DNA of 64,000 nt, from contig NZ_LQGY01000014.1 of the NCBI RefSeq assembly GCF_001620055.1, positions 62,001 through 126,000 of the forward strand. Reading direction: 5' to 3'. Shown here piece by piece: positions 2,981-54,544 of the stretch; the stretch's first letter is position 1; every line of letters starts with the position of its first letter. The stretch is from Agromyces sp. NDB4Y10 (GTDB lineage: Bacteria; Actinomycetota; Actinomycetes; Actinomycetales; Microbacteriaceae). Both the position numbers and the translations under genes were made by a program. A model generated the notes under the pieces. It ran no database searches and was not told the DNA's origin. It saw only the letters and a list, made by a program, of their open reading frames with translations.

Positions 2981-2996
2981 TCCGTCGATGAGAGCT

Positions 2997-3033
2997 GCGG
3001 CCGCGGCATCCGGCGAACGGATGCCGCGGCCGC
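2997..3033 (+). terminator. Hairpin terminator after the carboxypeptidase gene
   Basis: A perfect 16-base inverted repeat (2997-3012 against 3018-3033) encloses a 5-base loop GCGAA just downstream of the stop at 2980. There is no T-run, as is common for actinobacterial terminators. The stem is built from the genome word GGATGCCGC and its complement. Confidence 0.75.
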
Positions 3034-30126: not shown

Positions 30127-31557
30127 TCAGGTCCTGACGTCGGCGGTGAGCGCCCCGGCCGCGAGGGAACGTGCGGAGAGCGCGAGGTGCGCTCGGGTCA
30201 TCGCCTCGGGATCCGCGTCGAGCCATTCGTGCCCGCCCCACTCGCTGCACAGGGTGCCCGCGAAGCCCGCGCGGCCGAGTTCGGCGCCGAGATCGCGGAT
30301 CGGGTTCGACACCCGGCCGTCGGCGTCCTCCAGATCCCAGAACTTCAGGTGGAAGGCGCCGATGAGCGGCAGGATGTCGCGCAGCACCTCCGCGTCCGAG
30401 CGCCCGAAGCGCACGAGCATGTCCATGAACAGCGCGTGGGCGTGCGGCGGGACCGCGCCGGCTCGGAGCGTCGAGACGAGCGCGTCGATCGTGGCCGGGT
30501 CGCGCCATCCGCTCGTCAGCCGATCGAGGAGCGCGCGCTCGAAACCGGCGGCCCGGAGCGCCTCGAGGTACGTCACCGGCAGGGAGGGCATGAGCATGCT
30601 GGAGTCGACCAGCACGCGGACGTGCGGATCGTCGAGGGACGCGATCGCCTCCAGGGCGCGGGCGGTCTGCGGGTCGTCCGGGGTCTGCCGGCCCTGCGCC
30701 TCCTCGAGGAGCACGAGGTCGAGCTCCTGCAGATGGGGCAGCAGGCGGGCGAGCAGCGCCGATCCGGCCTGCCCGATCGGGAGGCGGACGCCGTCCGCGC
30801 CGATGCGATGCGCCGCGCGGAGCTGCGGCAGCAGGAACGCCAGCCGCTCGTCGTCGTCGCGACGCCGACCCGAGGCGTCCCAGTCGTCGAGGCTCGCCCC
30901 GACGATGCTGACGGTGCCGTCGGCCGACGCGAGCCCCGCGCGGAACGCGTCGACCTCGTCATCGCCGGGGGTGGGGAACCCGCGCCACATCTGGCCCGGC
31001 TCGATCTCGATGACGGAGGCCACGCCATCGCGGACGACGCCCGCGGCGATGTCCGCGGCGGGACGCTCGGCGCGCACCGCCTCCGGGGTCCAGTTGAACG
31101 CGCTCGCGGCGAGCGTCCAGCCCGCTGGCAGGTCCGCTGAGGGGGCGGGTCGGACGCGGGTCGTCGCTTCGGCGCCCGGATCGCTACCGAACGCGTCCGA
31201 GGCTCCGGCGTCGGCGGCGACCTCCGCGACCAGGGTGCGAGCGTGGTGGAACGGCAGGATGAGCGGGCCGTCGGGGCCCGCCTGCAGGTAGGGGATGAGC
31301 AGCCGGAACGACACGGCGACCTCGTGCGGCCCGTCGTCGAGGCGCTGCCCGGCTTCGACCACGAGTCGATCCTGCAGGAACCACCAGTCGCCGCACGGTC
31401 GGATGCGGAGGTCGGTGACGGGCGTGCCGTCGATCGAGACCTCCAGGTCCCGGAGGCTGGAGACGGGCAGCGAGCGGATCCAGGGCAGGCTGAGGCGCAG
31501 CGCGACGCCGTCCGCGGTGCGGGCGAGTGCGTCGTCGAGCAGGATCGGCAGGCTCAT
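30127..31557 (-). CDS. Fused C-glycoside deglycosidase-like protein (beta-alpha), divergent
   Basis: A 476-residue chain. Residues about 1-110 resemble the small CGD beta subunit (DUF6379; core LRLSLPWIRSLPVSSL), and about 145-470 a xylose-isomerase-like TIM barrel like the CGD alpha subunit. Probable metal ligands are E285 or E286, an aspartate in VLVDSS, H403 (FHLKFWD) and E439 (CSEWGGHEW). The histidine that normally follows the first glutamate at +2 (E-x-H) is missing, unlike the other alpha-like proteins here. It lies downstream of the ROK gene on the same strand and is preceded by a short overlapping leader frame. CGD-like activity is inferred; the altered site may mean another substrate or a lost activity. 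Confidence 0.72.
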   Translation of the reverse strand: MSLPILLDDALARTADGVALRLSLPWIRSLPVSSLRDLEVSIDGTPVTDLRIRPCGDWWFLQDRLVVEAGQRLDDGPHEVAVSFRLLIPYLQAGPDGPLILPFHHARTLVAEVAADAGASDAFGSDPGAEATTRVRPAPSADLPAGWTLAASAFNWTPEAVRAERPAADIAAGVVRDGVASVIEIEPGQMWRGFPTPGDDEVDAFRAGLASADGTVSIVGASLDDWDASGRRRDDDERLAFLLPQLRAAHRIGADGVRLPIGQAGSALLARLLPHLQELDLVLLEEAQGRQTPDDPQTARALEAIASLDDPHVRVLVDSSMLMPSLPVTYLEALRAAGFERALLDRLTSGWRDPATIDALVSTLRAGAVPPHAHALFMDMLVRFGRSDAEVLRDILPLIGAFHLKFWDLEDADGRVSNPIRDLGAELGRAGFAGTLCSEWGGHEWLDADPEAMTRAHLALSARSLAAGALTADVRT

Positions 31558-36574: not shown

Positions 36575-38170
36575 ATGTCCCACCACCCCACCATCGCCGT
36601 CGTCGGCAGCGGGCCGATCGGCTCCGCGTACGCCCGCCTCCTCGTCGAGGGCCTGCCCGACGCTCGGGTCGTCATGTTCGAGGCGGGTCCGCAACTCACC
36701 GAACGGCCGGGCGAGAGCGTGCGCAACATCGCCGATCCCGCCGAGAAGGCCCTCGCGCGCGAGCGTTCCCAGGGTCCGCAGGCGGGCGACCACCGCGAGT
36801 CGCTCGGCATCCCGGCCGGCACGGTCGTCGAGGGCATGTTCACGGCCCGCCAGGGCACGCACCTGTTCGACTTCGGCGGTGCCGGCTCCGCGCACGCGCC
36901 GACGTTCCCCGCGGCGGCGGCGGCCACCAATGTCGGAGGTCAGGGCGCGCACTGGACGTGCGCCATCCCGCGGCCGGGCTTCAGCGAGAAGGTCGACTTC
37001 ATCGCCGACGACGAGTGGGACGACCTCATCCGCGAGGCCGAGGGCCTGCTGCACGCCCAGAGCGCCGCGTTCGCGGACTCGGCGGTCGGGCGCGGCATCC
37101 GTTCGCTGCTCGCCGAGGAGTTCTCGGGCGAGCTGCCCGAGGGCTACGGTCCGAGCACCCTGCCCGTCGCGGGCGACCCGCAGCCCGACGGATCGATCCG
37201 CTGGGCCGGCGCCGACGTCGTGCTCGGACCGCTCATCGAGCCGGGCAACCCGCTCCGCGAGCGCTTCGAGCTGCGCGACCTCACGCTCGTGCGCCGCATC
37301 GAGCGCGACGGCGACCGGGTCACGGGCGTGACCGTCGAGGACCTCCGGACCCGCCAGACCTCGTTCGTCCCCGCCGACCTCGTCGTCGTCGCGGCGGACG
37401 CGTTCCGCTCGCCCCAGCTCCTGTGGGCGTCGGGCATCCGGCCGGCCGCCCTGGGGCACTACCTGACCGAGCACCCCGTCGTGATCTCCACCGTCGCCCT
37501 CGACGGCGAGCGGATGAGCCGCTACGCGACCGTGGACGAGCTCGAGGCGGAGCTCGCGCGCCGCGCCGCCAACGCGGCCGACCCGGTCGCGGCGGTCAAC
37601 CGCATCCCGTTCTCGGAGCCCGACCACCCGTTCGCGCTGCAGGTCATGTACTCGGAGACCACGCCGTTCCCGATGGACCCCGAGCACCCGCTGGCGAAGA
37701 ACCGCTGGGGCTACGTCAACATGGGCTACGGCATGCGCAAGTTCCCGCGCTACGAGGACGCCGTGACGTTCGACGACGACGAGCTCGACTACCGGGGCTT
37801 CCCGAACATGACCATCGAGTACGCGCTCACCGAGCGCGAGGAGACCGAGATCGCCGCGGCGACCGAGCGCCTCCGTCGTGCCGGCCGGGCGCTCGGCACC
37901 TTCGTCGCGGAGCCGCGGCTCATGCCGAACGGGTCGAGCCTGCACTACCAGGGCACCATGCGCATGGGCCCCGCGGACGACGGCACGTCCGTCGCCGACC
38001 CGTGGTCGCGGGTGTGGGGCGTCGAGAACCTCGTCGTCGGCGGCAACGCGCTGATCCCGACTGCGACGGCCATGAACCCGACGCTCATGAGCGTCGCGAT
38101 CGCGGTGCGCGGGGCGCGCAAGGCGGTCGAGGAGCTCTCGGCCCGCACCGCGGCATCCGTCACCGCCTGA
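36575..38170 (+). CDS. GMC-family glycoside oxidoreductase (3-oxidase/CarA-like), first copy
   Basis: A 531-residue flavoprotein. FAD loop VGSGPIGSAYA, TNVGGQGAHWTCAIPRPG, and the active-site H and N of the GMC fold in SLHYQGTMRMG and TAMNPTLMSVA. The pattern resembles pyranose oxidase and bacterial glycoside 3-oxidases, including CarA, which oxidises the C3 hydroxyl of C-glucosides before C-C cleavage. GAGGAG lies eight bases before the ATG. It is directly followed by two fused CGD-like genes, which would use its 3-keto product. Confidence 0.85.
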   Translation: MSHHPTIAVVGSGPIGSAYARLLVEGLPDARVVMFEAGPQLTERPGESVRNIADPAEKALARERSQGPQAGDHRESLGIPAGTVVEGMFTARQGTHLFDFGGAGSAHAPTFPAAAAATNVGGQGAHWTCAIPRPGFSEKVDFIADDEWDDLIREAEGLLHAQSAAFADSAVGRGIRSLLAEEFSGELPEGYGPSTLPVAGDPQPDGSIRWAGADVVLGPLIEPGNPLRERFELRDLTLVRRIERDGDRVTGVTVEDLRTRQTSFVPADLVVVAADAFRSPQLLWASGIRPAALGHYLTEHPVVISTVALDGERMSRYATVDELEAELARRAANAADPVAAVNRIPFSEPDHPFALQVMYSETTPFPMDPEHPLAKNRWGYVNMGYGMRKFPRYEDAVTFDDDELDYRGFPNMTIEYALTEREETEIAAATERLRRAGRALGTFVAEPRLMPNGSSLHYQGTMRMGPADDGTSVADPWSRVWGVENLVVGGNALIPTATAMNPTLMSVAIAVRGARKAVEELSARTAASVTA

Positions 38171-39534: not shown

Positions 39535-41010
39535 ATGCCGAACGGACTCATCCAGGCCGACAGCCTGCGCACGCACCCCGAGGGCCTCGCGCTCTCGCTC
39601 ACCCTGCCGTGGTACCGGAGCCTCTGGCTCTCGTCGGTGTCGACGCTGCGGCTCACGGTGGACGGCGAGCCGGTCGCGGCCGAGGACCTCGCATTCGAGC
39701 TCGGCGGCGTGCGCTACGCGCTCGACGAGCTGCCGCAGCAGAGCGAGGTGCTCTGGTACCTGCAGGCGCATCCGCTGCTCATCGCGAAGCGGGACCAGCC
39801 CGTCGCACTCGGCGAGTCGCACGAGGTCGAGGTCCTCGGCGAGCTCCGCCTGCCGTACATGCAGATCGCGCCCGGCGCCGACGGCGGACCCGGCATGTAC
39901 GTGCCCAACGTGGTGCGGCAGTCGCTCGAGCTGACGGTCACCGACCGCGATGCACCGGCGCCGGCGATGGTGACGCATGTCGCTCCGCCGCCGCCCGCCG
40001 CGGACGGCGACCCGTTCGCGCTGGGCCTGACCCTGTACTCGGCCAGTGCCGAGTTCCGCGCCGGCTGGTACGACTTCGACGGCCTGCTCGACCGGGTCGG
40101 GGAGCTCGGCATCGGCCCGGGCATCGAGATCGTCGCCTCGCAGGTGCTGCCGACGTACCCGGTCGTGTCCGACGACTTCGTGCGCACGTGGCGCGACGCG
40201 TTCGACCGGCACGGCTTCGACGCGAGCTCGTTCGGCGCGAACCTCGACATGGGCCGACGGCGCGACCGCGACATGACACCCGACGAGGAGTTCGAGTTCA
40301 GCGAGACGCTGTTCCGCGGTGCGGCGAAGCTCGGCTTCCCGCTCGTGCGCATCCAGAGCGCCAAGCCCGAACTGCTGCGCCGGCTCCTCCCGGTCGCCGA
40401 GGAGCTCGACCTGAAGCTGGGCTACGAGATCCACGCGCCCCTCGGCCCGAACGCCGAGCCGATCCTCAAGGTGCGCGAGACCTACGCCGAACTCGACTCG
40501 CCGCTGCTCGGGTTCGTCGCCGACTTCTCATCCACCATGCACGCGATGTCGCCGACGTTGCTGCGGGCGGTGCGTCGGGCGGGCCTCGACGACGAGGCGG
40601 TCGAGCGGCTGCAGGCGATCTGGGCGACCGACGCGCCGATGCGGGAACGCCAGGAGGCGTTCATCGGCTACCTCCGCGGCCGCGACTTCGACCCCGGCCG
40701 GCTCGGCGCGTTCGCGCACCTCGCGTTCAACATGCACGGCCACGTCGACCCGCGCGAGTGGGCCGACATCATGCCCCAGATCCTGCACGTGCACGCCAAG
40801 TTCTACGACATCGACGGCGACGGCCAGGAGCCCGCGATCGACTACCCGGAGCTCGTGCGCGTCTTCGTCGAGGGCGGCTACCGAGGTTACTGGTCGAGCG
40901 AGTGGGAGGGCCACGCCTTCGCCGAGCTCGGCGAGGTCGACCCGCTGCTGCTCGTGCGCCGCCAGCACGACCTCATCCGCGCGAGCATGCGGGCGGTGCA
41001 GCCCGCCTGA
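39535..41010 (+). CDS. Fused C-glycoside deglycosidase-like protein (beta-alpha), complete active site
   Basis: A 491-residue chain. The beta-like domain (about 1-135) has the core [16 protein letters not shown] and MQIAPGADGGPGMY, nearly the same as the stand-alone beta gene at 54128. The TIM barrel (about 160-490) has the full set E298/H300 (YEIHAP), D330 (ADFSSTMH), H420 (VHAKFYDID) and E456 (SSEWEGHAF), matching the stand-alone alpha at 52280. It therefore looks like a fusion of that alpha/beta pair. Known CGDs are hetero-oligomers of separate subunits, so an active single chain would be notable. AGGACAGGACC precedes the ATG. Confidence 0.82.
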   Translation: MPNGLIQADSLRTHPEGLALSLTLPWYRSLWLSSVSTLRLTVDGEPVAAEDLAFELGGVRYALDELPQQSEVLWYLQAHPLLIAKRDQPVALGESHEVEVLGELRLPYMQIAPGADGGPGMYVPNVVRQSLELTVTDRDAPAPAMVTHVAPPPPAADGDPFALGLTLYSASAEFRAGWYDFDGLLDRVGELGIGPGIEIVASQVLPTYPVVSDDFVRTWRDAFDRHGFDASSFGANLDMGRRRDRDMTPDEEFEFSETLFRGAAKLGFPLVRIQSAKPELLRRLLPVAEELDLKLGYEIHAPLGPNAEPILKVRETYAELDSPLLGFVADFSSTMHAMSPTLLRAVRRAGLDDEAVERLQAIWATDAPMRERQEAFIGYLRGRDFDPGRLGAFAHLAFNMHGHVDPREWADIMPQILHVHAKFYDIDGDGQEPAIDYPELVRVFVEGGYRGYWSSEWEGHAFAELGEVDPLLLVRRQHDLIRASMRAVQPA

Positions 41011-41643: not shown

Positions 41644-42948
41644 TCAACCCCAGGCGGCGTCCATCTCGTCGAGGATCTGGTCGACCGTCTTCTGGCCCGT
41701 CAGGAGACCCTGCACGCCGGCGCCGAGCGCGTCGTACACCGCCGGGTTCGGCCACGTCGAGTTCGGGAGGCCGGTGAAGGCACCCGACTCGAGGAGGCCG
41801 CCGATGGGCTGGTAGATCGGGAGGAGGTCATCACCGGCGACACCGGTGATCGGCACCGCGCCGAAGGTGTCAGCGAAGGACTTCGCCTGCTCGGGCTCCG
41901 CGGCCCAGTCGAGGAACTCCTGCACGGCAGCCTTGACGTCGTCGTCGGCGGAGGCGTTGATCGCCCACGCGTAGTTCGCCGAGGCCAGCGTGTACTCGCC
42001 CGCGCCGTCGGCCGGCGGGAACGCTCGCACGTCGGTCTCGAGGCCGGCGCCGGCGTTGATCGAGTTCGCCGCCGAACCGGGGACCGGTGCCGCGAGCGCG
42101 GAGCCGCCGCCGATGCCGTTGGTGATGTTGTCGAACGTGCCACCCGCGGCGCCGTCCTGGAAGCATCCCGCCTCGTTGAGCTCGACGAAGTCCTCGAGCA
42201 CGTCACGCCATCCGCTGTCGGCGAAGGTGACGTCGCCCGCGGCGCGCTGCTCGTTCCAGTCCGGCGTCTCCTCGTAGACGCGCGTGGCGGAAAGGATCTG
42301 CGAGAACAGGCCGGTGTTGAACGGGATGGAGCCGGCGATCACGAGGAAGCTCTTGCCGCCCTCACGCGCGGTCGCGCAGGCGTCGAGCAGGTCCTCGTAC
42401 GTCTCCGGGAACTCGTCGATGCCGACCTCCTCGGCGGCGGCCGGGTTGTAGACCAGGCCGACGGGCTGCAGCGACGTGGGCTGGGCGTAGGTCTCGCCGT
42501 CGACCTCGTAGAGCGAGGCCGTTCCCTCGGGGATGACGCCCGCCGAGGTGTCGTCGAGCGGCTCCAGGAAGCCCGCCTCGGCGAGGGTGATGACCGAGAT
42601 CGGCTGGCCGGTGCCGGGCGAGAGGATCATCGCGTCGGCGGCGTTGCCGCCCTGGAGCTGCGTGGTGACCTGCGTGTTGTACGCGTCGGACGGGTAGGGG
42701 ATGACCTCGACCTCGACGCCGGTCTCCTCGGCGTACTGGTCGATGAGCTGCTGGTACGCGGTGTCCTGGTCGTTGGCCTGGGCGACCATGATGGAGAAGC
42801 TGTCGGCGGCGCCGCCATCGGCGCTCCCGCCTCCGTCATCCGACCCGCCGCCGCCGGCGCAGCCGGCGAGGACCATGACCCCGGCGACCGGTGCGGCGAG
42901 GAGCGACCACCGGAACTTGTTGGCGGGGTGCTGTGCGTGCTGTGGCAT
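41644..42948 (-). CDS. ABC sugar importer, solute-binding lipoprotein
   Basis: A 434-residue family 1 extracellular binding protein. The signal peptide ends in the lipobox LAG-C30, followed by a flexible Gly/Ser/Asp linker, so the protein is tethered to the outer face of the membrane. The mature part has the two-lobed binding-protein pattern. GAAAGGGTCGAA lies before the ATG. Its permeases are probably those at 46479 and 47444, which are on the other strand beyond the GH106 gene. Upstream, a CTGACATTAG word at 43042-43051 recurs at 50731. Confidence 0.9.
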   Translation of the reverse strand: MPQHAQHPANKFRWSLLAAPVAGVMVLAGCAGGGGSDDGGGSADGGAADSFSIMVAQANDQDTAYQQLIDQYAEETGVEVEVIPYPSDAYNTQVTTQLQGGNAADAMILSPGTGQPISVITLAEAGFLEPLDDTSAGVIPEGTASLYEVDGETYAQPTSLQPVGLVYNPAAAEEVGIDEFPETYEDLLDACATAREGGKSFLVIAGSIPFNTGLFSQILSATRVYEETPDWNEQRAAGDVTFADSGWRDVLEDFVELNEAGCFQDGAAGGTFDNITNGIGGGSALAAPVPGSAANSINAGAGLETDVRAFPPADGAGEYTLASANYAWAINASADDDVKAAVQEFLDWAAEPEQAKSFADTFGAVPITGVAGDDLLPIYQPIGGLLESGAFTGLPNSTWPNPAVYDALGAGVQGLLTGQKTVDQILDEMDAAWG

Positions 42949-43088: not shown

Positions 43089-46000
43089 TCACGAGCCTTC
43101 GAAGCGGATGGTGACCGGCCCGGCGAGGCCCGCGCGCGACGGAGCGGCGTGAGGCTCGAAGACCGCGGCCATCGCAGCCGGGATCTCGCCGCTCGGCGAG
43201 GCCGCTTCCGCGATCAGCCGATTCCGCCACGGAGTCGCGACCTCGACCTCGAGCACGTTGCGACCCGAGCGGAGCGCGGCGGTGACCTCGACCCGGAACG
43301 GCTCGGTCCACGCGACCCCGCAGTCGAGGTCGTTGAGCCGCACGCGCGCGATGTCGCGCACCACGCCGAGGTCGAGCCTCGATCGGCGGGCGACGTCCTC
43401 GACCTCGGGAAGCTCGAACTCGAGCCGGTAGGTGGCGACTCCGGAGAAGCCCGTTGCACCGAGGTCCGTCCAGAACTGCGGGCCGGGCGAGACGGGCACG
43501 GGGTCCCGACCGGGCAGCAGGAGGTGCCATTCGCCCTCGAGCGTCAATGCGTCGACGGGCTCACATGCAGCCGCCTCGGCGGCGCCCGCCGCCGCGGAGA
43601 GGACGAAGACGGATCCGAACGGCTCGAGCGCGATCAGCTCGGCCTCGCCGTCGGCGGACCGGACCAGGCGCGACCGTCGCACCTCGACGGGATCCCACGC
43701 GACGAGCGGCCCCGTCCCGCCGCTCACGAGGCGGAGGTGGATCGGCTGGTCCGACGGGTTGGCGAGAAACGTCACCCGTCGCCCGTCGATCTCGCGTGCG
43801 ATCCTCCGCACCGGAGGCCCGTCGATCTCGAGCGCCGGGCGCCACTCGAGTTCGCGCAGGGCCTCCCCGAGATCGGCCGTATCGACGACGCGGCCGCCGC
43901 CGCGGCGCGCGCCCCAGATGCGCGCGCACGCCGCGGCGAACTCCTCGGGATCGTCGGCGAGCGACGGCGTGGCGGTGGGTCGCGTTCCGATGACCGTCGC
44001 CCCGGCATCGAGGAGGCGCTCGACCGCTCGGAGCGTCGACAGCGTCATCCGTTCGCTCGACCCGCCCAGGAACAGGGCCCGGTACGCGGCGCCCTCGGAG
44101 ACCAGCCGATCTCCGTCGAATCGGAGCACGTCGCGGAGTGCGTCCGGCCCGACGTAGTCGAAGTCGAACCCGGCAGGCACGGCGCTGTCGACGACCTGCT
44201 CGAACAGGCCGGTCACGGGCGCCTCCTCGCCGACGAACACCGCCACGTCGACGGCAGGCGCACCCGCGGCCAGAACGGCGGAGCACCGGGCGAGGTAGTC
44301 GATCCATGGTCGCGCCATCTCCGACCACGTCTCGTGCACGGTGAAGGCCTGGCCGAGGAACGGCGCGAGCGCGATGCCCGGGGACGGAGCGGCGATCGGC
44401 TGGTGCGGCGAGGTGTGGATGCAGAACCGGGTGACCCCGAGCGAGAGCTGCAGATCGGCGATGTGCTTCAGCGTGCGTGGGGTCCACGACCAGGGCCGGT
44501 CGAACGACGTGAACGCCTCGGCGCCCACCCAGCGGCGACCGTGGACGTGCGCGACCGAGGCAGCTCCCTTCAGGTCGGCGACGTAGGTCGGCCGCGGCCC
44601 TTCCCGGGACTCGAACGTCCACATCGCGCCCATCGGGACATCCGCGGGAGCCCGCATCGCGAGGTCGTCGCCGAGTTGCGGCCGGCCGTCCTCGAGCGCC
44701 TCGGCGTAGTACGTCATGCCCCGTCGGTGCGCCTCGGCGGCCAGCGTGCCGTAGTACTCGTCGGCGTAGAGCTCGGCGATGGTGCGTCGGTAGTCGTACA
44801 GGAACCGGTCGGTCTCGTCGGGGCTGCCGACGACGAGTCCGGCGAGTGCCGGCAGCCGGCTCGTCGGGTCGTACCCCCGCCGCCGCCGGAACTGCTCGAT
44901 CATCCCCTCGGTCCAGTTCTGCGAGCCGGCCTCGATGCTGTCGCTGAGCAGCGCCGAGATGCCGGGGCCACCGGATGCCGCGCCGCCGCGATCCACGCCG
45001 AAGCGCTCGAGGTGCGTGGCCAGGTAGGCGCGCACCCGCTCGCCGTCGAGCTTGTCGACCTCGAGGCCGGTCGAATCCGTCGGAGCCGGCCCATTGGTCT
45101 GGCCGGTGAGCGATGCGCCCAGCCGAAGCACCGTCCACTCGCCCTCCGGCGGCGTCCACCGCAGGACGCCGTCGACGACGTCGCCCGTGACGTCGACGAC
45201 GTCCTCGGGCCCGATCGCCCCGATCCGGGCGTCGGCGGGGGTGGGCACCACGTGGTAGTCGGGCACGACGCCGAAGCCCGCCTTGGCCTCGGCGAAGTGG
45301 ACGCGTCCCGCCGTGCGGAGCGCGAACTCGGAGACGGCGAACGCGTCGGAGGTGCGCAGGACGGGCGGAAGGCGCACGCCCGCTGCGACGGGAGGCAGGG
45401 CCTCCGCGGCGCTCGCGGCCGACAGCACGAGCCGGAACCGTCGGGCCGTGACCGCGGGGAAGCTGACGGTCCGTGCGGGGAGCGTCGACGCCGGAAGCGC
45501 GGCGATGTCGCGGTAGTGGACCCCGTCAGCGCTCGCCTGGAGGGTGGCGTCCGGCGGCGGGGCGGCGCCGAACCCACGAGGTCCCGGCAGGCCGACGCTG
45601 ACCGAGCGGACGGTGACGTCCTCGTCGAACACCTGCTCGATCCACGCCGACGACCAGCGGTCGGGGTCGCGGGGGAGGAGCAGCGCGTCGCCGAATGCGC
45701 CGTCGGTGAGGCAGGACGCGTCGTCGACGGGTGCCGACGCGCGGAACGATGCCGGCTCGAGGGTCGCGCGTCGCGCGTCGGCCGGGAAGGCCAGCACGCG
45801 CCAGTCGACGGCGAACGCCGCGGTCCCGCCCCCGTCGCCCCGACGCGGGCAGTCCAGGAAGGCGCCCGCGACTCCCGGCAGCGTCGGCAGCTCGATCGTG
45901 ATGGGCGCGCCGCCGCTGATCTGGCATGCCGCCCAGACGACCTTCTTCATCGCGTCGCCGGGCGCCACCCATGGACCGCCGGAGGCGCTCCAGCCGGACG

Positions 46001-46319
46001 AGGTCGCGACGGCGAGCTCCAAGCCGAGGGAGGCGGCGGTGTTCACCGCGGCATCGACGGCTCGATCCCATTCGGGCGTGTCGGGCCGGACCGGGGACGG
46101 CACGACGAGCGGGCCGCCCATCCCGCCGTCGAAGATCTGCGCACCGCGCACTCCTGTCGCGTGCAGCCAGCGCAGGTCGCGCTCGATGCCGTCCGGGTCG
46201 ACGTTCCCGTCCATCCAGTGCCACCAGACGCGCGGGCGCGCCTCGTCGGGCGGATCGACGAACGCGTCCCACAGCGGGTCGCGTCCCGTCGCCGGTCGCG
46301 TCGATGGCAGTCGGTCCAT
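43089..46319 (-). CDS. GH106-family glycoside hydrolase (alpha-L-rhamnosidase-like)
   Basis: A 1076-residue enzyme with the GH106 N-terminal hallmark PRVWWHWMDGNVDPDGIERD and later IADLQLSLGVTRFCIHTSPH plus a C-terminal beta-sandwich (about 900-1076; SGVATYRLEFELP, LNDLDCGVAW, GRNVLEVEVATPW). GH106 enzymes remove alpha-L-rhamnose, including from flavonoid rhamnosides. No signal peptide is visible, so it probably acts in the cytoplasm after uptake. GGGAGGA stands about ten bases before the ATG. A TATAAG -10 lies at 46372-46367 on the minus strand. The binding-protein gene follows 140 bases downstream on the same strand. Confidence 0.82.
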   Translation of the reverse strand: MDRLPSTRPATGRDPLWDAFVDPPDEARPRVWWHWMDGNVDPDGIERDLRWLHATGVRGAQIFDGGMGGPLVVPSPVRPDTPEWDRAVDAAVNTAASLGLELAVATSSGWSASGGPWVAPGDAMKKVVWAACQISGGAPITIELPTLPGVAGAFLDCPRRGDGGGTAAFAVDWRVLAFPADARRATLEPASFRASAPVDDASCLTDGAFGDALLLPRDPDRWSSAWIEQVFDEDVTVRSVSVGLPGPRGFGAAPPPDATLQASADGVHYRDIAALPASTLPARTVSFPAVTARRFRLVLSAASAAEALPPVAAGVRLPPVLRTSDAFAVSEFALRTAGRVHFAEAKAGFGVVPDYHVVPTPADARIGAIGPEDVVDVTGDVVDGVLRWTPPEGEWTVLRLGASLTGQTNGPAPTDSTGLEVDKLDGERVRAYLATHLERFGVDRGGAASGGPGISALLSDSIEAGSQNWTEGMIEQFRRRRGYDPTSRLPALAGLVVGSPDETDRFLYDYRRTIAELYADEYYGTLAAEAHRRGMTYYAEALEDGRPQLGDDLAMRAPADVPMGAMWTFESREGPRPTYVADLKGAASVAHVHGRRWVGAEAFTSFDRPWSWTPRTLKHIADLQLSLGVTRFCIHTSPHQPIAAPSPGIALAPFLGQAFTVHETWSEMARPWIDYLARCSAVLAAGAPAVDVAVFVGEEAPVTGLFEQVVDSAVPAGFDFDYVGPDALRDVLRFDGDRLVSEGAAYRALFLGGSSERMTLSTLRAVERLLDAGATVIGTRPTATPSLADDPEEFAAACARIWGARRGGGRVVDTADLGEALRELEWRPALEIDGPPVRRIAREIDGRRVTFLANPSDQPIHLRLVSGGTGPLVAWDPVEVRRSRLVRSADGEAELIALEPFGSVFVLSAAAGAAEAAACEPVDALTLEGEWHLLLPGRDPVPVSPGPQFWTDLGATGFSGVATYRLEFELPEVEDVARRSRLDLGVVRDIARVRLNDLDCGVAWTEPFRVEVTAALRSGRNVLEVEVATPWRNRLIAEAASPSGEIPAAMAAVFEPHAAPSRAGLAGPVTIRFEGS

Positions 46320-48398: not shown

Positions 48399-49193
48399 GT
48401 GTACCAGCTCGCACCCAATATCGAACTCCTCTTTACCGAAGCCGGCGACTACCACGACCGTGTGCGCGCCGCCGCCGCGGCCGGCTTCACCGCCGTCGAG
48501 ATGTGGGGGCCCACGGGAGTGGACGCCCCGGCGAAGCCGAAGGACCTCCCGGCGCTCAAGGCCGCGCTCGTCGAGACCGGCACCCAGTTGACGGCCCAGC
48601 TCGCCGAGCCGCGCACGCAGTTCATGATCCCGCCGTGGGACCACTCCGAGTTCTTCCGGAAGCTCGACGAGGGCGTCTCGATCGCGAAGGAACTCGGGTG
48701 CCCGCGCATCGTCGTGGGCAGCGGCACCGGGTTCGGCGGGTGGAAGCGGCAGGTGCAGCTCGACAAGCTCATCGAGATCTACGAGAAGGCCATCGCGCAG
48801 ATCGACGGCTCCGGCATCACGCTCGTCCTCGAGCCGGTGAACGTCCGCGTGGATCACCCCGGCTCGCTGCTGGACCGTACGGCGGAGGCCGTCTACGTGG
48901 CCCGCGGCGTGGACTCGCCGTTCTTCGGCATCCTCTACGACATCTACCACTCGGCCGTCGAGGGCGAGGACATGGCGGCGGAGCTCGCCAATGCCGGCGA
49001 CCTGGTGAAGTACGTCCAGCTCGCCGACACTCCCGGTCGCGGCGAGCCGGGCTCGGGATCGCTCGACTGGGCCGAGACCCTCGGTATCCTGCGCGCGTCC
49101 GGGTACGACGGTCCGATCGGGCTCGAGTACTACCCGACGCAGGAGTCCGAGGCGTCCGTCGCCCTCATCCGCGAACTGGCGGTGACCGCATGA
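48399..49193 (+). CDS. Hydroxypyruvate isomerase-like sugar isomerase
   Basis: A 264-residue TIM-barrel protein of the Hyi group. Metal-binding positions appear as E in LVLEPVN, D in LYDIYHS, Q in YVQLADTPGR and E in GLEYYP, the E-D-Q-E set of hydroxypyruvate isomerase. It probably isomerises a keto sugar or keto acid released by glycoside cleavage. GTG 48399 has AGGAG seven bases upstream. Its stop overlaps the GMC gene start, tying it to the 3-oxidation step. Confidence 0.82.
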   Translation: MYQLAPNIELLFTEAGDYHDRVRAAAAAGFTAVEMWGPTGVDAPAKPKDLPALKAALVETGTQLTAQLAEPRTQFMIPPWDHSEFFRKLDEGVSIAKELGCPRIVVGSGTGFGGWKRQVQLDKLIEIYEKAIAQIDGSGITLVLEPVNVRVDHPGSLLDRTAEAVYVARGVDSPFFGILYDIYHSAVEGEDMAAELANAGDLVKYVQLADTPGRGEPGSGSLDWAETLGILRASGYDGPIGLEYYPTQESEASVALIRELAVTA

Positions 49194-50734
49194 GCCGCTA
49201 TCCCGAGGCCGTCGACGTCGCGATCGTCGGCAGCGGCCCGACCGGCGCCGCGTACGCGCGCATCCTCAGCGAAGCGGCGCCGGACGTCACGATCGCGATG
49301 TTCGAGGTCGGCCCGACGGTCTCCGACCCGCCCGGCGCGCACGTCAAGAACATCGAGGACCCGGCAGCGCGTGCCGCCGCGCAGCGCGCGTCGGAGGGTC
49401 CCGGCGCCGGCGCCGCGACGGTGAACTCGCCCGGCGCCGTGAAGAGCGGCGAGCGTCGCGCCCGCCCCGGCACGTTCCTCCTCGAGGAGGGCTACGCGTT
49501 CCCGGGTGAGGACGGCCTGCCCGTCGCGGCCATGTCGAGCAACGTCGGCGGCATGTCCGCCCACTGGACGGGCGCCTGTCCGCGTCCGGGCGGCAGCGAG
49601 CGCATCGCGTTCCTGCCCGACCTCGACGAGCTGCTCGACGAGGCCGACCGCCTGCTCGGGGTCACGACCGATGCGTTCGACGGCGCGCCCTTCACCGACC
49701 TCGTGCGCGAGCGCCTGGCCGCGGCGGTCGACGAGGGTCGCGACCCGGCCGCGAGGGTGCAGCGGATGCCGCTCGCCGTGCACCGCCGACCCGACGGCCG
49801 CCTCGTGTGGTCGGGCTCGGACGTGGTGCTGGGCGACGTCACGCGCGCCAACCCGCGCTTCGCCCTGCACGACGAGTCGCTCGCCACGCGTGTGCTCGTC
49901 GAGGACGGCCGTGCCGCGGGGGTCCGGGTGCGCGACCTGCGGACGGGGGAGGAGCACGAGGTGCGCGCCCGCGCGGTCGTGGTGGCCGCCGACGCGCTCC
50001 GCACCCCGCAACTGCTCTGGGCCAGCGGCATCCGCCCCGACGCCCTCGGTCGCTACCTCAACGACCAGACCCAGGTCGTCTTCGCCTCGCGCATCCGCGA
50101 CGTCGGCCCGGGCGCCGGTGCCGAGGAGGCCGCGCCCGCCGAGGGCGGCCTGAGCGAGCAGAGCGGCGTGAGCTGGGTGCCGTACACCGACGAGCAGCCC
50201 TTCCACGGACAGATCATGCAGCTCGACGCGTCCCCGATCCCGCTCGCCGAGGACGACCCGGTCGTGCCGGGCTCGATCGTCGGTCTCGGGTTGTTCTGCG
50301 CGAAGGACCTGCAGCGCGACGATCGCGTCGAGTTCAGCGACGAGGAGGTCGACGCGTACGGCATGCCGGCGATGCGCATCCACTACCGGCTCACCGAGCG
50401 CGACCGCGAGGTGCTCGAGCAGGCTCGCGCGGAGATCGTGCGCCTGGGCGAGGCGGTCGGCCAGCCGCTCGACCCGCGACCGTTCACCATGCCGCTGGGT
50501 GCGTCGTTGCATTACCAGGGCACGACCCGCATGGGGGAGCGCAACGACGGCACGAGCGTGTGCAACCCCGACGGCGAGCTCTGGGATGCGTCCGGAGTCT
50601 TCGTGGCGGGCAACAACGTGATCCCAACGGCCACGGCGTGCAATCCGACGCTCACGAGCGTGGCCCTCGCGGTCCGCGGCGCGCGGGCGATCGCACGTCA
50701 CCTCGCGGCGGATCTTGCTTCCGTCGAAAACTGA
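49190..50734 (+). CDS. GMC-family glycoside oxidoreductase (3-oxidase/CarA-like), second copy
   Basis: A 514-residue relative of the protein at 36575. FAD loop VGSGPTGAAYA, SSNVGGMSAHWTGACPRPGG, and catalytic H/N in SLHYQGTTRMG and TACNPTLTSVAL. It probably oxidises the sugar C3 hydroxyl of a glycoside with FAD. It differs from the first copy through the substrate-loop region (about 90-115 and 285-330), so the two may take different glycosides. The start overlaps the Hyi-like stop (ATGA). A separate promoter follows inside its 3' end. Confidence 0.85.
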   Translation: MSRYPEAVDVAIVGSGPTGAAYARILSEAAPDVTIAMFEVGPTVSDPPGAHVKNIEDPAARAAAQRASEGPGAGAATVNSPGAVKSGERRARPGTFLLEEGYAFPGEDGLPVAAMSSNVGGMSAHWTGACPRPGGSERIAFLPDLDELLDEADRLLGVTTDAFDGAPFTDLVRERLAAAVDEGRDPAARVQRMPLAVHRRPDGRLVWSGSDVVLGDVTRANPRFALHDESLATRVLVEDGRAAGVRVRDLRTGEEHEVRARAVVVAADALRTPQLLWASGIRPDALGRYLNDQTQVVFASRIRDVGPGAGAEEAAPAEGGLSEQSGVSWVPYTDEQPFHGQIMQLDASPIPLAEDDPVVPGSIVGLGLFCAKDLQRDDRVEFSDEEVDAYGMPAMRIHYRLTERDREVLEQARAEIVRLGEAVGQPLDPRPFTMPLGASLHYQGTTRMGERNDGTSVCNPDGELWDASGVFVAGNNVIPTATACNPTLTSVALAVRGARAIARHLAADLASVEN

Positions 50735-50752: not shown

Positions 50753-50782
50753 ATGACGAAGAAGTCCAGGAGGTCCGCATGA
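50753..50782 (+). CDS. Possible 9-residue leader peptide before the beta subunit gene
   Basis: ATG 50753 opens the frame MTKKSRRSA, whose TGA overlaps the ATG at 50779. The ribosome binding site AGGAGG of the beta gene lies inside it. The ATG is three bases or fewer from the predicted transcript start, so it could be read as a leaderless start. It parallels the leader before the fused gene at 31557. Confidence 0.3.
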   Translation: MTKKSRRSA

Positions 50783-51186
50783 TCGCCGACCGCATCATCG
50801 AACACGGCACGCTCAGCACCGACGGAGACCGTGCATCGGTCGAGGTCCGGATGCCGTGGTACCGGGCGCTGCCCGGCTCGTGCATCGCCGGCGCGACGCT
50901 GGCGATCGATGGCGTCGAAGCGCCCGCCGAGTCGCTGCGCTGGCGCATGAACGGCCGCGAGTTCACGTTCGGCGAGCTCGTCGACGCGACCGACGAGTGG
51001 TGGTTTCCCAGCGATTCCGCCGTGCTCTCTGGCGACGTGGCGGTGGCGACGGAGGCCGCGGAACACGAGGTGAGCGTCCAGCTCACGCTCTACATCCCCT
51101 ACATCATCATCGGCGACGGCGAGACCCTCCACATCGAGGAGCGCGACACGAAGTCGATGCCGGCACGAAAGGCGGTGGCGGCATGA
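50779..51186 (+). CDS. C-glycoside deglycosidase beta subunit-like protein (DUF6379)
   Basis: A 135-residue beta-sandwich protein with the beta-subunit core VEVRMPWYRALPGSCI and the C-terminal LTLYIPYIII. Beta subunits (DgpB, CarB type) complete the active site of the alpha TIM barrel. AGGAGG lies six bases before ATG 50779. The stop overlaps the alpha-like gene by ATGA, the usual arrangement of a CGD pair. Confidence 0.82.
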   Translation: MIADRIIEHGTLSTDGDRASVEVRMPWYRALPGSCIAGATLAIDGVEAPAESLRWRMNGREFTFGELVDATDEWWFPSDSAVLSGDVAVATEAAEHEVSVQLTLYIPYIIIGDGETLHIEERDTKSMPARKAVAA

Positions 51187-52283
51187 CGCAGCTCGGCACG
51201 CCCGTCCAGGGCGTCACGCTCTACAGCTTCACTCGCGCATTCCACGGCCGCGAGATCGATCTCGAAGGGCTGATCCGACGGGTCGCCGCCGAGGGGTACG
51301 GCCCCGGCCTCGAGATCATCGGCTTCTCGAGCTTCCGCGGATTCCCCGAGGTCGACGACCGCTTCGCGGGTGAGTTCCGCGACCTCGTCGCGGAGACGGG
51401 GCTCGTCACCACCTCGCTCGCCGTGAACGCCGACATCGGCATCCACCGCGACCGCCTGCTCACGCAGGACGAGCTCATCGAGTACATGCGCCGGCAGATC
51501 GAGGCGGCCGCGAAGCTCGGCTTCCCCATCGCGCGCGTGCAGATCTCCCTCACGCCCGACTCGATGGAGCAGCTCGCTCCCATCGCCGAGCAGTACGGCG
51601 TGACCCTCGCGCTCGAGGTGCACGCCGACCAGTACGCCTCGCACCCCCGCATCCTCGCCCTCCGCGACCGGTACGAGCAGGTCGGGTCGCCGTTCCTCGG
51701 GTTCACCATGGACTGGGGTGCCACGGTCACGGGCTTCGCACCGTCGCTGCTCGAGGCGTACCGCCGCCGGGGCGCGTCCGACGAACTGCTCGCGAAGGTG
51801 GTCGACCTCTGGAACGCCTTCTACGAGCAGGGCCCGCCCGCCGACCAGGCGGAGCACGGGCAGCGGTTCGGCGCGTTCATCGGTCTCGCCGCGCAGAACG
51901 GCCGACCCGACCTCGGCATCGACTTCGGCATCAACGGCACGGGACTCTTCGGCCCGGCCCGCGTCGACGACTGGCTCGAGATCATGCCGTGGATCCGGCA
52001 CGTGCACGGCAAGTTCTTCGGCATCGACGAGCGCGGCGAGGAGCCCTCGGTCCCCGTGCGCGACCTCGTCCGCCTGCTCGTCGAGCAGGGCTACTCGGGC
52101 GCGATCTCGAGCGAGTACGAGGGGTGGCACTGGAACAACTGGGAGAGCCCCTTCGACATCATCGCGGCCGAGCAGGCCGTGCAGCGGTCGGCCGCCGAGG
52201 CCACCGGTTCCCGCATGATCACGGATGCCGCGGAGGCCCGCCGCATCCTCGACACCCACCTCGGAAAGGCGGTCCAGGCATGA
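51183..52283 (+). CDS. C-glycoside deglycosidase alpha subunit-like TIM barrel, first copy
   Basis: A 366-residue xylose-isomerase-like barrel. Predicted metal ligands are E145/H147 (LEVHAD), D177 (TMDWGA), H275 (VHGKFFGID) and E311 (SSEYEGWHW). Known alpha subunits (DgpC, CarC, AgCGD type) use a divalent metal to cleave the C-C bond of 3-keto C-glucosides. Its start overlaps the beta-like gene and its stop overlaps the second alpha-like gene, so all three are co-translated. Confidence 0.82.
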   Translation: MTQLGTPVQGVTLYSFTRAFHGREIDLEGLIRRVAAEGYGPGLEIIGFSSFRGFPEVDDRFAGEFRDLVAETGLVTTSLAVNADIGIHRDRLLTQDELIEYMRRQIEAAAKLGFPIARVQISLTPDSMEQLAPIAEQYGVTLALEVHADQYASHPRILALRDRYEQVGSPFLGFTMDWGATVTGFAPSLLEAYRRRGASDELLAKVVDLWNAFYEQGPPADQAEHGQRFGAFIGLAAQNGRPDLGIDFGINGTGLFGPARVDDWLEIMPWIRHVHGKFFGIDERGEEPSVPVRDLVRLLVEQGYSGAISSEYEGWHWNNWESPFDIIAAEQAVQRSAAEATGSRMITDAAEARRILDTHLGKAVQA

Positions 52284-53341
52284 GCGAGACGACCGACGGC
52301 ATCGCCGGCACCGGCATCAAGCTGGGCACCACCCTCTACTCGATGACCAGCGAGTTCGCGGCCGGCGTCTACACCCCGGAGACGTTGATCAGGGCCGTGC
52401 ACGACGAGGGCATCGGCCCGGGCGTCGAGTTCAACATCGCCCAGCTGCTGCGCACGTACCCCGACGTCGACGAGGAGTTCGTGAAGCTCTGGTTCGACTC
52501 GCTCGAGAAGTACGGCCTCGAGGCGAGCGCCGTCGGCACCAACCTCGACATGGGCCGGCGCAAGGACCGTGACATGACGCCCGACGAGGAGCACGAGTTC
52601 CTCGCACGCCAGCTGAAGACCGCGCACACGCTCGGCTTCAAGCGGGTCGTCATCCGGTCGCACGGCAAGGAGCTGCTGCGCAGCCTGCTGCCGCTCGCCG
52701 AGAAGTACGACCAGTACCTCGGCTACGAGATCCACGCGCCCTCCGGGCCGAACAACCCGCAGGTGCTGCAGATGCGCGAGATGTACGACGAGCTGCAGTC
52801 GGAGCGCCTCGGCTTCACCGCCGACTTCTCCTCGACGATGCACTCGCTCTCGCCGACGCTGCTGACCACGCTCGCGCAGATGGGGATGGACGAGAAGCAC
52901 TTCCCGGTCATGGAGGAGATCTGGCACGAGCCGACCCCCATGCACGTGCGCAACCAGAAGTTCGAGGACTACCTCGTGGGCGAGGGCGTGGACCCGCTCA
53001 CCTTCGGGCCGTTCACGCGTCTGGCCTTCAACATGCACGGCCTGGTTCCGCCGGAGGAGTGGCTGGACATCATGCCGCAGATGTTCCACGTGCACGCGAA
53101 GTTCTACGACATCGACGAGAACGGCGACGAGCCCGCCATGGACATCCCGCGCATCGTCCGGCAGTTCGTCGTGGGCGGATACCAGGGGTACCTCTCCAGC
53201 GAGTGGGAGGGTCACGCCTTCCAGGATCTCGGCGAGGCCGACCCGATCGATCTCGTGAAGAAGCAGCACGCGCTGATGCGCAAGGCGATCGAGGAGACCG
53301 TCGCGTCGCAGGAACCCGCGAAGGAGCACGCCGATGTCTGA
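52280..53341 (+). CDS. C-glycoside deglycosidase alpha subunit-like TIM barrel, second copy
   Basis: A 353-residue barrel closer to the alpha-half of the fusion at 39535 than to its neighbour: E150/H152 (YEIHAP), D182 (ADFSSTMH), H272 (VHAKFYDID), E308 (SSEWEGHAF), plus NLDMGRRKDRDMTPDEE shared almost exactly with that fusion. Its natural partner is probably the beta-like gene at 54128, which lies beyond a SnoaL-like gene. The start and stop overlap both neighbours. Confidence 0.83.
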   Translation: MSETTDGIAGTGIKLGTTLYSMTSEFAAGVYTPETLIRAVHDEGIGPGVEFNIAQLLRTYPDVDEEFVKLWFDSLEKYGLEASAVGTNLDMGRRKDRDMTPDEEHEFLARQLKTAHTLGFKRVVIRSHGKELLRSLLPLAEKYDQYLGYEIHAPSGPNNPQVLQMREMYDELQSERLGFTADFSSTMHSLSPTLLTTLAQMGMDEKHFPVMEEIWHEPTPMHVRNQKFEDYLVGEGVDPLTFGPFTRLAFNMHGLVPPEEWLDIMPQMFHVHAKFYDIDENGDEPAMDIPRIVRQFVVGGYQGYLSSEWEGHAFQDLGEADPIDLVKKQHALMRKAIEETVASQEPAKEHADV

Positions 53342-54119
53342 CACGACCACCGCCCCGGCATCCCTCTCCGAACTGCAGGCCGAACTGGCCGCGTTGCGCG
53401 AGGAGGTCGCCGGAGCCCGGGCGCTGGCGCAGCGGGCAGAGGACCGCGGCCAGGTAGAGAACCTGTTCAACCGCTACATGTACCTGCACAACGCGTTCGA
53501 GGACGAGCAGATCATCCCGCTGTGGGTGAAGGAGGGTACGGAGGGCATCCGCGCCCGGTACACCAACGCCGGCCAGTACACGACGTGGCAGAGCGTCACC
53601 GACTACCACCGCGGCCGCCCGCATCCCGAGGGCAAGCTCATCCTTCACGCCACGACCACACCCGTGATCGAGGTCGCCGCCGACGGCAGGACCGCCAAGG
53701 GCGTGTGGTTGATGGCGGGCACCGAGTCGGGCCTGACCGATCCGAAGGTCGCCGAGGCGTTCCCCGACATGTACTCGCCGAAGGAGGTGCTCGGCAAGAA
53801 GGTCTGGGCGCACTGGGTGTGGTGCAAGTACGCCATCGACTTCCTCAAGCAGGACGGCGAGTGGAAGTTCTGGAAGTTCCGCTGCTACGAATTGGCGCGC
53901 GCGCCGTTCGAGGAGAACTGGGTCAGCTTCGGCCTGAAGAACCAGGGCGCGTTCGACCTCGACCTCATGTACTTCGGCGACGACGGCAAGCCCGTCTTCA
54001 TGCCCCCGGCCGACGAGCCCGTGCCCTCGACCAACCACCCCTACAGCCCCGAGACCGTGCAGAAGCTCGAGCCGGCACCGCCCGTGCCGCACGAGCACTT
54101 CACCGACACCTACGCCTGA
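53334..54119 (+). CDS. SnoaL-like (NTF2-fold) protein with N-terminal coiled coil
   Basis: A 261-residue protein. Residues about 10-40 form a heptad-like coiled coil (SLSELQAELAALREEVAGAR), followed by the SnoaL_4-type domain (LFNRYMYLHNAFEDEQIIPL, then HATTTPVIEV and KYAIDFLKQDGEWKFWKFRCY). NTF2-fold proteins may be dehydratases, isomerases or binding partners; catalytic residues cannot be assigned. It overlaps the alpha-like gene by 8 bases with AAGGAG upstream, so it is made along with the CGD subunits, suggesting it acts on the sugar or aglycone produced. Confidence 0.75.
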   Translation: MSDTTTAPASLSELQAELAALREEVAGARALAQRAEDRGQVENLFNRYMYLHNAFEDEQIIPLWVKEGTEGIRARYTNAGQYTTWQSVTDYHRGRPHPEGKLILHATTTPVIEVAADGRTAKGVWLMAGTESGLTDPKVAEAFPDMYSPKEVLGKKVWAHWVWCKYAIDFLKQDGEWKFWKFRCYELARAPFEENWVSFGLKNQGAFDLDLMYFGDDGKPVFMPPADEPVPSTNHPYSPETVQKLEPAPPVPHEHFTDTYA

Positions 54120-54127
54120 GGAAGATC

Positions 54128-54544
54128 ATGGCCACGCACAATTCGCTTTTCGCCGACAAGGACGTCCGTCGCACCGAGACGGGACTCTCGGTCTCACTGC
54201 AGCTGCCCTGGTACCGGAGCCTGTGGCTCTCGGCGGTCGACGGCGTCGCGGCATCCGTCAACGGCGTCCAGATCCCGACCGACCAGCTGCGCTTCGAGCT
54301 CGAAGGCCGCGTGTACCGCATCGAGGAGCTCCCCGAGCAGTGGGACACGCTCTGGTTCGTCGCCGACCGCCCCAACGTGCTCATCGACCTCGGCCGCGCG
54401 CCGGAGGAGGGCGAGCAACTGACCGTCGAGGTGGTGCTCACGATGCGACTGCTCTACATGCAGATCATGCCGGGAGTCGACGGCGGCCCCGGCCGGTACG
54501 TCACGAACCGCGTGCCCGTCGAGCGCGAGGTCGTGCTGGCATGA
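54128..54544 (+). CDS. C-glycoside deglycosidase beta subunit-like protein, second copy
   Basis: A 138-residue protein with the beta core [19 protein letters not shown] and [20 protein letters not shown]. It is close to the N-terminal domain of the fusion at 39535 and likely pairs with the alpha at 52280. GAGGAA lies before the ATG, and the stop overlaps the following Gfo/Idh gene by ATGA. Confidence 0.83.

Follow-up and report, generated by a model that had tools for sequence, protein, structure and literature searches.

A single-gene C-glycoside deglycosidase-type protein related to AgCGD2 in a glycoside cluster of Agromyces sp. NDB4Y10

The window analysed here, a stretch of 64,000 nucleotides from Agromyces sp. 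NDB4Y10 (contig NZ_LQGY01000014.1, positions 62,001 to 126,000), carries a cluster of genes related to C-glycoside deglycosidases (CGDs), enzymes that release sugars from plant compounds by breaking the chemically inert aryl C-C bond with an active site built by two subunits, alpha and beta. Three genes of the window, here named fus1, fus2 and fus3, encode a beta-like and an alpha-like part within one polypeptide, and stand-alone alpha and beta genes, oxidoreductases and further sugar-related genes are also present (Table 1). The present work concerns fus2, which the initial annotation had described as a single-chain fusion of CGD beta and alpha subunits; that description made no reference to the fused nature of fus1 and fus3.

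Table 1. Positions of fus2, its domains and the other features of the cluster in the window
Feature	Position	Strand	Remarks
fus2, one-chain beta-alpha CGD, 491 aa	39535..41010	+	ATG-started uninterrupted open reading frame; domain and PDB matches
fus2 beta domain, residues 1-135	39535..39939	+	PF19906; Tyr27 aligned with PuCGD Tyr39-beta
fus2 linker, approximately residues 136-157, Pro/Ala-rich	39940..40005	+	Model without a strand between residues 134 and 162
fus2 alpha TIM-barrel domain, residues 158-491	40006..41007	+	PDB matches, model, alignment
fus1, second tandem one-chain beta-alpha CGD, 433 aa	38191..39492	+	Orthologue of PDB 8QRZ/8UN2; directly upstream of fus2
fus3, divergent beta-alpha fusion	30127..31557	-	Metal site kept; His149 to Gln, Glu307 to Gly, Tyr39-beta to Ile
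GMC/pyranose-oxidase-like FAD oxidoreductase	36575..38170	+	Predicted glycoside 3-oxidase, likely to make the 3-keto substrate
Second GMC/pyranose-oxidase-like oxidoreductase	49190..50734	+	Family search
Stand-alone CGD beta (beta1)	50779..51186	+	
Stand-alone CGD alpha (alpha1)	51183..52283	+	Overlaps the end of beta1
Stand-alone CGD alpha (alpha2)	52280..53341	+	Groups with AgCGD2 alpha in the tree
SnoaL_4 (NTF2-like) protein	53334..54119	+	Between alpha2 and beta2
Stand-alone CGD beta (beta2)	54128..54544	+	Resembles the beta half of fus2
GH106 alpha-L-rhamnosidase	43089..46319	-	Within the C-glycoside cluster
Extracellular solute-binding protein of a sugar ABC importer	41644..42948	-	

The description as a fusion was borne out, and fus2 is a genuine one-polypeptide CGD-type protein. 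Residues 15-108 match the Pfam family PF19906 (CGDB) with 50.9 bits (cut-off 27.6; E 1.6e-13). In a PDB search, residues 3-118 matched the beta subunit of AgCGD2 (7dnm_B, E 2.8e-27) and residues 158-490 its alpha subunit (7dnm_A, E 9e-130), values that exclude a chance match for either half. The likeness to the stand-alone proteins of the same window, noted earlier for the first 135 or so residues and for the rest of the chain, was also found, with 44% identity over 125 residues to the beta at 54128 and 55% identity over 328 residues to the alpha at 52280. The model of the beta domain superposes on the AgCGD2 beta chain with TM scores, normalised to target length, of 0.88 (7dnm_B) and 0.90 (7dnn_B) and a root-mean-square deviation (rmsd) of 1.6-1.9 over 134-136 columns. 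The C-terminal part has the TIM-barrel alpha fold of the AgCGD2 kind, and AlphaFold2 (AF2) gave a confident single-chain model of the whole protein, in which 27 residues between the strands at 134 and 162 form the strand-free linker. No NCBIfam model was found at E 0.01 for fus2, fus1, fus3, both stand-alone alphas, both betas or the SnoaL-like protein.

The initial annotation had further taken a CGD made as one polypeptide to be an undescribed form. This claim does not stand, since one-chain CGDs are already in the PDB: the entries 8qrz and 8un2 (the latter by cryo-EM), entitled 'Microbacterium testaceum C-glucosyl deglycosidase (CGD), wild type' and released on 2025-04-23, are single beta-alpha chains of 433-435 residues. 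Part of the novelty is gone with this public structure, and what is left for fus2 is its lineage and probable assembly, not the one-chain form itself. No publication on the two entries was found in the open-licence literature, which lacks most subscription journals, and one may well exist elsewhere. No mention of a one-chain CGD was found in the available parts of the open-licence CGD literature (PMC8563793, PMC12141560, PMC12724307, PMC10628242, PMC10646112, PMC9659204, PMC11673046, PMC10807413, PMC13273386, PMC12062775).

The counterpart of the solved chains in the window is fus1, which matches PF19906 with 109.7 bits and is approximately 80% identical to 8qrz_A over its length; both fus1 and 8QRZ/8UN2 have Gln at the position of the ligand His269 of AgCGD2. 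Named genomes were scanned with peptide patterns from both halves of fus2, an approach that favours close, fused relatives; 112 stretches were confirmed and the best 80 kept (here and below, L numbers denote loci). 8qrz_A and the protein encoded by L050:4691-5983 in M. testaceum NS220 do not differ at any of the 431 aligned residues, and a fus2 orthologue directly follows that gene. A full-length one-chain fus1 homologue occurs within the same stretch in 67 of the 80 kept loci. The fus1-type beta and alpha lie in two frames in five (L043, L047, L054, L107, L113), the homologue is cut off in one (L066), and none above 45% identity was found in the remaining seven. Four of these five pairs (L047, L054, L107, L113) have an alpha that begins with ATGA, the beta frame ending inside this tetranucleotide; a small frame change could fuse such pairs and leave the very short linker of this type.

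The fusion of the fus1 and 8QRZ kind, here type I, resembles fus2 (type II) in being one polypeptide with beta first and the alpha barrel second. The two types nevertheless differ. The identity between 8QRZ and fus2 is 23-28%, and they fall into separate clades; the type I alpha is nearest to EuCGD among the older structures, whereas that of fus2 is AgCGD2-like, and where 8QRZ has Gln at the His269 position, fus2 has H420. The gap between the domain envelopes is 3-4 residues in type I and 20 in fus2, and between the final strand of beta and the initial strand of the barrel there are 9 residues in the fus1 model as compared with 27 in that of fus2. The predicted placement of the beta domain also differs, as the fus2 model deviates from 8qrz_A by a whole-chain rmsd of 16-18 Å, while that of fus1 superposes on it with an rmsd of 1.4 Å. 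The closest solved relative of each fus2 half is AgCGD2 (AgCarB2-C2; PDB 7DNM/7DNN) of Arthrobacter globiformis, with 58-59% identity and an rmsd of 2.0-2.2 for alpha and 43% identity for beta. The difference lies in the architecture: AgCGD2 is a two-chain alpha-beta heterodimer according to the available part of PMC8563793, whereas fus2 is one chain. PuCGD (DgpB/DgpC), EuCGD (DfgA/DfgB) and DaCGD (8QVC/8UMC) share the two folds and the compared metal and catalytic positions with fus2; they consist of separate chains, and their alphas are 23-30% identical to that of fus2. The source strain of AgCGD, NBRC 12137, also has homologues of fus1 and fus2 (L095; 79% and 82%).

The active-site positions of AgCGD2 are kept in fus2. 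In the alignment, E298, D330, H420, K422 and E456 correspond to Glu147, Asp179, His269, Lys271 and Glu305, which are the metal ligands of AgCGD2 (PMC8563793, in part), and H300 and E458 correspond to His149 and Glu307, the catalytic pair in which His149 is the proposed base (same source). The set of ligands predicted earlier was therefore right for E298, D330, H420 and E456; it had included H300, which matches the proposed base instead, and had overlooked K422. In addition, Y27 of fus2 aligns with Tyr39 of the PuCGD beta subunit, for which a role in catalysis is described in the available part of PMC13273386.

Judged from its sequence, fus2 is probably a 3-keto-C-glucoside lyase, that is, a CGD belonging to the AgCGD2 lineage whose beta gene (upstream) and alpha gene (downstream) have merged into one frame, and most likely a Mn2+-dependent lyase fed by neighbouring glycoside 3-oxidases. 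According to this proposal, a neighbouring GMC oxidase would oxidise C3'' of an aryl C-glucoside, and the beta domain of fus2 would fold back by way of the 27-residue linker onto the active site in the alpha barrel of the same chain. Mn2+ bound by E298, D330, H420, K422 and E456 would activate the aglycone, and H300, positioned with E458, would take the C2'' proton. The C-C bond would then break in a step resembling beta-elimination, yielding the aglycone and 1,5-anhydro-D-erythro-hex-1-en-3-ulose. This chemistry follows the metal-assisted acid/base mechanism put forward for AgCGD2 (PMC8563793, in part). The fusion itself would fix a 1:1 stoichiometry and keep the beta half of fus2 from pairing with nearby CGD alpha or beta proteins. 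While residues, fold, conservation and gene neighbours were observed, we infer activity, substrate, in-cis closure and the benefit of the fusion.

Several observations weigh against this proposal. The C-terminal part of fus2 reaches 27.6 bits against Pfam AP_endonuc_2, below the cut-off of 31.1. Related barrels do other chemistry, the 3-keto-glucoside 4-epimerase YcjR being among the fold matches. The packing in cis is a prediction from the AF2 single-chain model. The gene is also patchy, as nine other genomes of the genus had no match in a sample of 398 genomes of the window's family, taken evenly from a larger number. The window encodes further CGD sets that look complete, so that the function of fus2 could have shifted. 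Finally, the alpha pocket of fus2 resembles that of AgCGD2, yet the stretch following the 'YMQIAP' motif of its beta part is longer than in AgCGD2, and a preference for C6 or C8 therefore cannot be called.

A shifted function could mean that fus2 is a one-chain enzyme of the same fold acting on another 3-keto sugar compound, either as a 3-keto-O-glycoside eliminase or as a hydratase acting on the glycal that the cluster's CGDs produce. We consider this unlikely. The available part of PMC10628242 describes an eliminase of O-glycosides that has a comparable barrel and metal site, as well as some activity of PuCGE on O-glycosides, but that eliminase has no beta subunit (same source), and fus2 keeps the residues linked with C-C cleavage in AgCGD2 and PuCGD, including the equivalent of Tyr39-beta. 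While several CGD-like sets in one window do invite a division of labour, a changed chemistry is more plausible for fus3, with its His to Gln and Tyr to Ile exchanges. It appears similarly improbable that fus2 works only as a domain-swapped oligomer in which the beta half closes the active site of another chain. Intestinal CGDs are alpha4beta4 assemblies, but the characterised soil-bacterial CGDs, AgCGD2 among them, are alpha-beta heterodimers (PMC8563793, in part); and the very short linker that makes a swap plausible for type I contrasts with the longer one of fus2, whose confident single-chain model shows a domain placement unlike that of 8QRZ.

The integrity of the fus2 frame was determined in the kept named loci and in the family sample. 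By tblastn, 77 of the 80 named loci contain the protein as a single piece without a stop that spans residues 5-475 or more; in the other three the match ends near a contig end (L109), the frame is broken at the junction (L106), or two genes are present (L114). The closest named relatives, among the best 80 of the 112 stretches, are A. bracchium (93%) and A. tardus (91%). Within the family, some match occurred in 27 of the 398 genomes and a full-length frame in 20 (own genome included). Linker and substitution rates were compared in the window and 76 of the 77 intact loci, L066 having been dropped by a length filter. The stretch equivalent to residues 118-157, which includes the last beta strand, has 40 residues in 71 of these 77 sequences, 39 in five and 41 in one. 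The median dN/dS in 400 random pairs was 0.32 for the beta part, 0.37 for residues 116-156 and 0.14 for the alpha part, and the junction is under purifying selection. That an assembly artefact or local frame error joined two genes is next to impossible, because, even though the broken L106 frame and the two genes of Goekera (L114) show that the boundary can vary, the open frames in both samples and the selection on the junction refute such a join.

Internal translation of a separate alpha was also ruled out. A Shine-Dalgarno (SD)-like 4-mer before an in-frame internal start near the junction was found in just 6 of the 77 sequences, at most four of them at one position; such a 4-mer precedes the proper fus2 start in 52 of 76, the site of L105 being misplaced as this locus lacks the MPNG motif used for placing. 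From the intact frames, the steady junction length and the scarcity of SD-like internal starts it follows that the cell most likely makes fus2 as one chain.

In Goekera deserti the fus2 counterpart (L114 5989-7451, + strand) consists of two genes, beta then alpha, in which the alpha ATG lies 11 bases past the beta stop with GGAG between them; the type I CGD of this organism (L114 3607-4905) is fused, unlike this pair. The copy with the frame broken at the linker (L106 5998-7351) is labelled Planococcus sp. APC 4015, a host label that looks doubtful, and next to it stands a type I copy with 81% identity to fus1. Among plasmid records there were 22 matches to fus2, of which H1 alone covers 99% of the query (82.8% identity); H1 and H5 bear no annotation across the matched region. 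The family searches covered the window's own phylum, where weak PF19906 matches elsewhere (G487, G714) gave no match in their loci with purpose-built profiles.

A maximum-likelihood tree of fused and separate CGDs was calculated from 70 alpha domains (66 of 260 after a redundancy filter plus six PDB chains, less L066 at a contig end and L106 with its broken frame). The tree requires at least five changes between the fused and separate states, although such counts cannot tell fusion gain from loss, and fused proteins occupy four separate positions: fus1, fus2, fus3 and a pair from L139. A single clade of all 23 fused rows was rejected by the approximately unbiased (AU) test (p-AU 8e-7), as was one of types I and II together (20 rows; p-AU 5.5e-37), a grouping chosen once the tree was known. 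Tree position and p-AU thereby rule out that fus2 is a plain member of the 8QRZ lineage. The fus2 clade has a support of 99/94, and its joint branch with the Goekera two-gene alpha and separate alphas of the AgCGD2 type 100/100; the placing of the Goekera alpha inside this branch is weak (92/26). Type I is mixed, with fused and separate rows interleaving. Every fusion found has the order beta then alpha, and 30 of the 42 separate alphas of the loci have a beta gene within 700 nt upstream, six have one downstream alone and six none within 700 nt. The L139 pair (100-1563 and 1575-3005, both on the - strand) represents two further tandem beta-alpha fusions, which group with PuCGD-type alphas and come from another family of the order.

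One old fusion followed by several later splits may instead account for this pattern, and the rejection of a single clade alone does not decide the matter. Separate origins of the fusions explain it more simply, given that AgCGD2, PuCGD, EuCGD and DaCGD, the relatives solved earlier, consist of separate chains; from this we infer that separate genes are ancestral. There is, in our estimate, about an even chance that fus2 represents a second, independently evolved one-chain CGD architecture, namely a heterodimer of the AgCGD2 type, joined covalently, in which the monomer closes its active site in cis, while in the short-linker M. testaceum type the beta domain sits elsewhere with respect to its barrel and may serve a neighbour. 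Adjacent gene pairs would then have fused several times in the same order, with four fused lineages seen and two fusions standing next to each other in one cluster.

Repeated fusion of this kind would offer a compact natural experiment on the passage from heteromers to single chains. The subunits of PuCGD and EuCGD were not interchangeable in pull-down tests (PMC8563793, in part), and a naturally one-chain enzyme of AgCGD2 type would make the role of alpha-beta pairing directly testable. It would also be a ready single-gene scaffold for biocatalysis, including reverse C-glycosylation, which has been reported for PuCGE (PMC13273386, in part).

The third fusion, fus3, lies below the Pfam cut-offs for both domains and matches 7dnm_A with 88 bits. 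Twenty-three loci were examined, 20 of them with at least 45% identity (L038 and L152-L170, where L152 is the window's own locus and L169 and L170 are in pieces). All 20 retain the five metal positions, have Gln in place of the catalytic His and carry Gly at the position of Glu307; Ile occupies the Tyr39-beta position in all 16 with an aligned beta part. The distant loci L006, L008 and L171 have the same Gln and Gly, and L115, the next row to the fus3 branch in the tree, has His and Glu. Because the substitutions are invariant across the subfamily, they argue for a different reaction rather than decay; one guess is that fus3 hydrates the CGD product. The subfamily is fused in some genomes and separate in others, with a one-piece match and no stops in six of the 20 (L152, L153, L156, L157, L158, L162). 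A fus3 copy at 55% identity or more occurs in 17 of the 20 fus2-bearing family genomes (in pieces in G226 and G364), and of the other three, G016 and G292 carry the distant fus3 branch.

The two GMC proteins of the cluster are likely 3-oxidases by family resemblance, and both score far under the pyranose-oxidase equivalog cut-off. Glycoside 3-oxidases of such a kind feed soil CGDs (PMC10646112 and PMC12724307, both in part). The solute-binding protein, the GH106 enzyme and two permease-like open reading frames in the window, the latter recognised by eye and not by family search, fit the import and trimming of plant glycosides, and the presence of GH106 in the cluster suggests rhamnosylated plant glycosides as the natural food.
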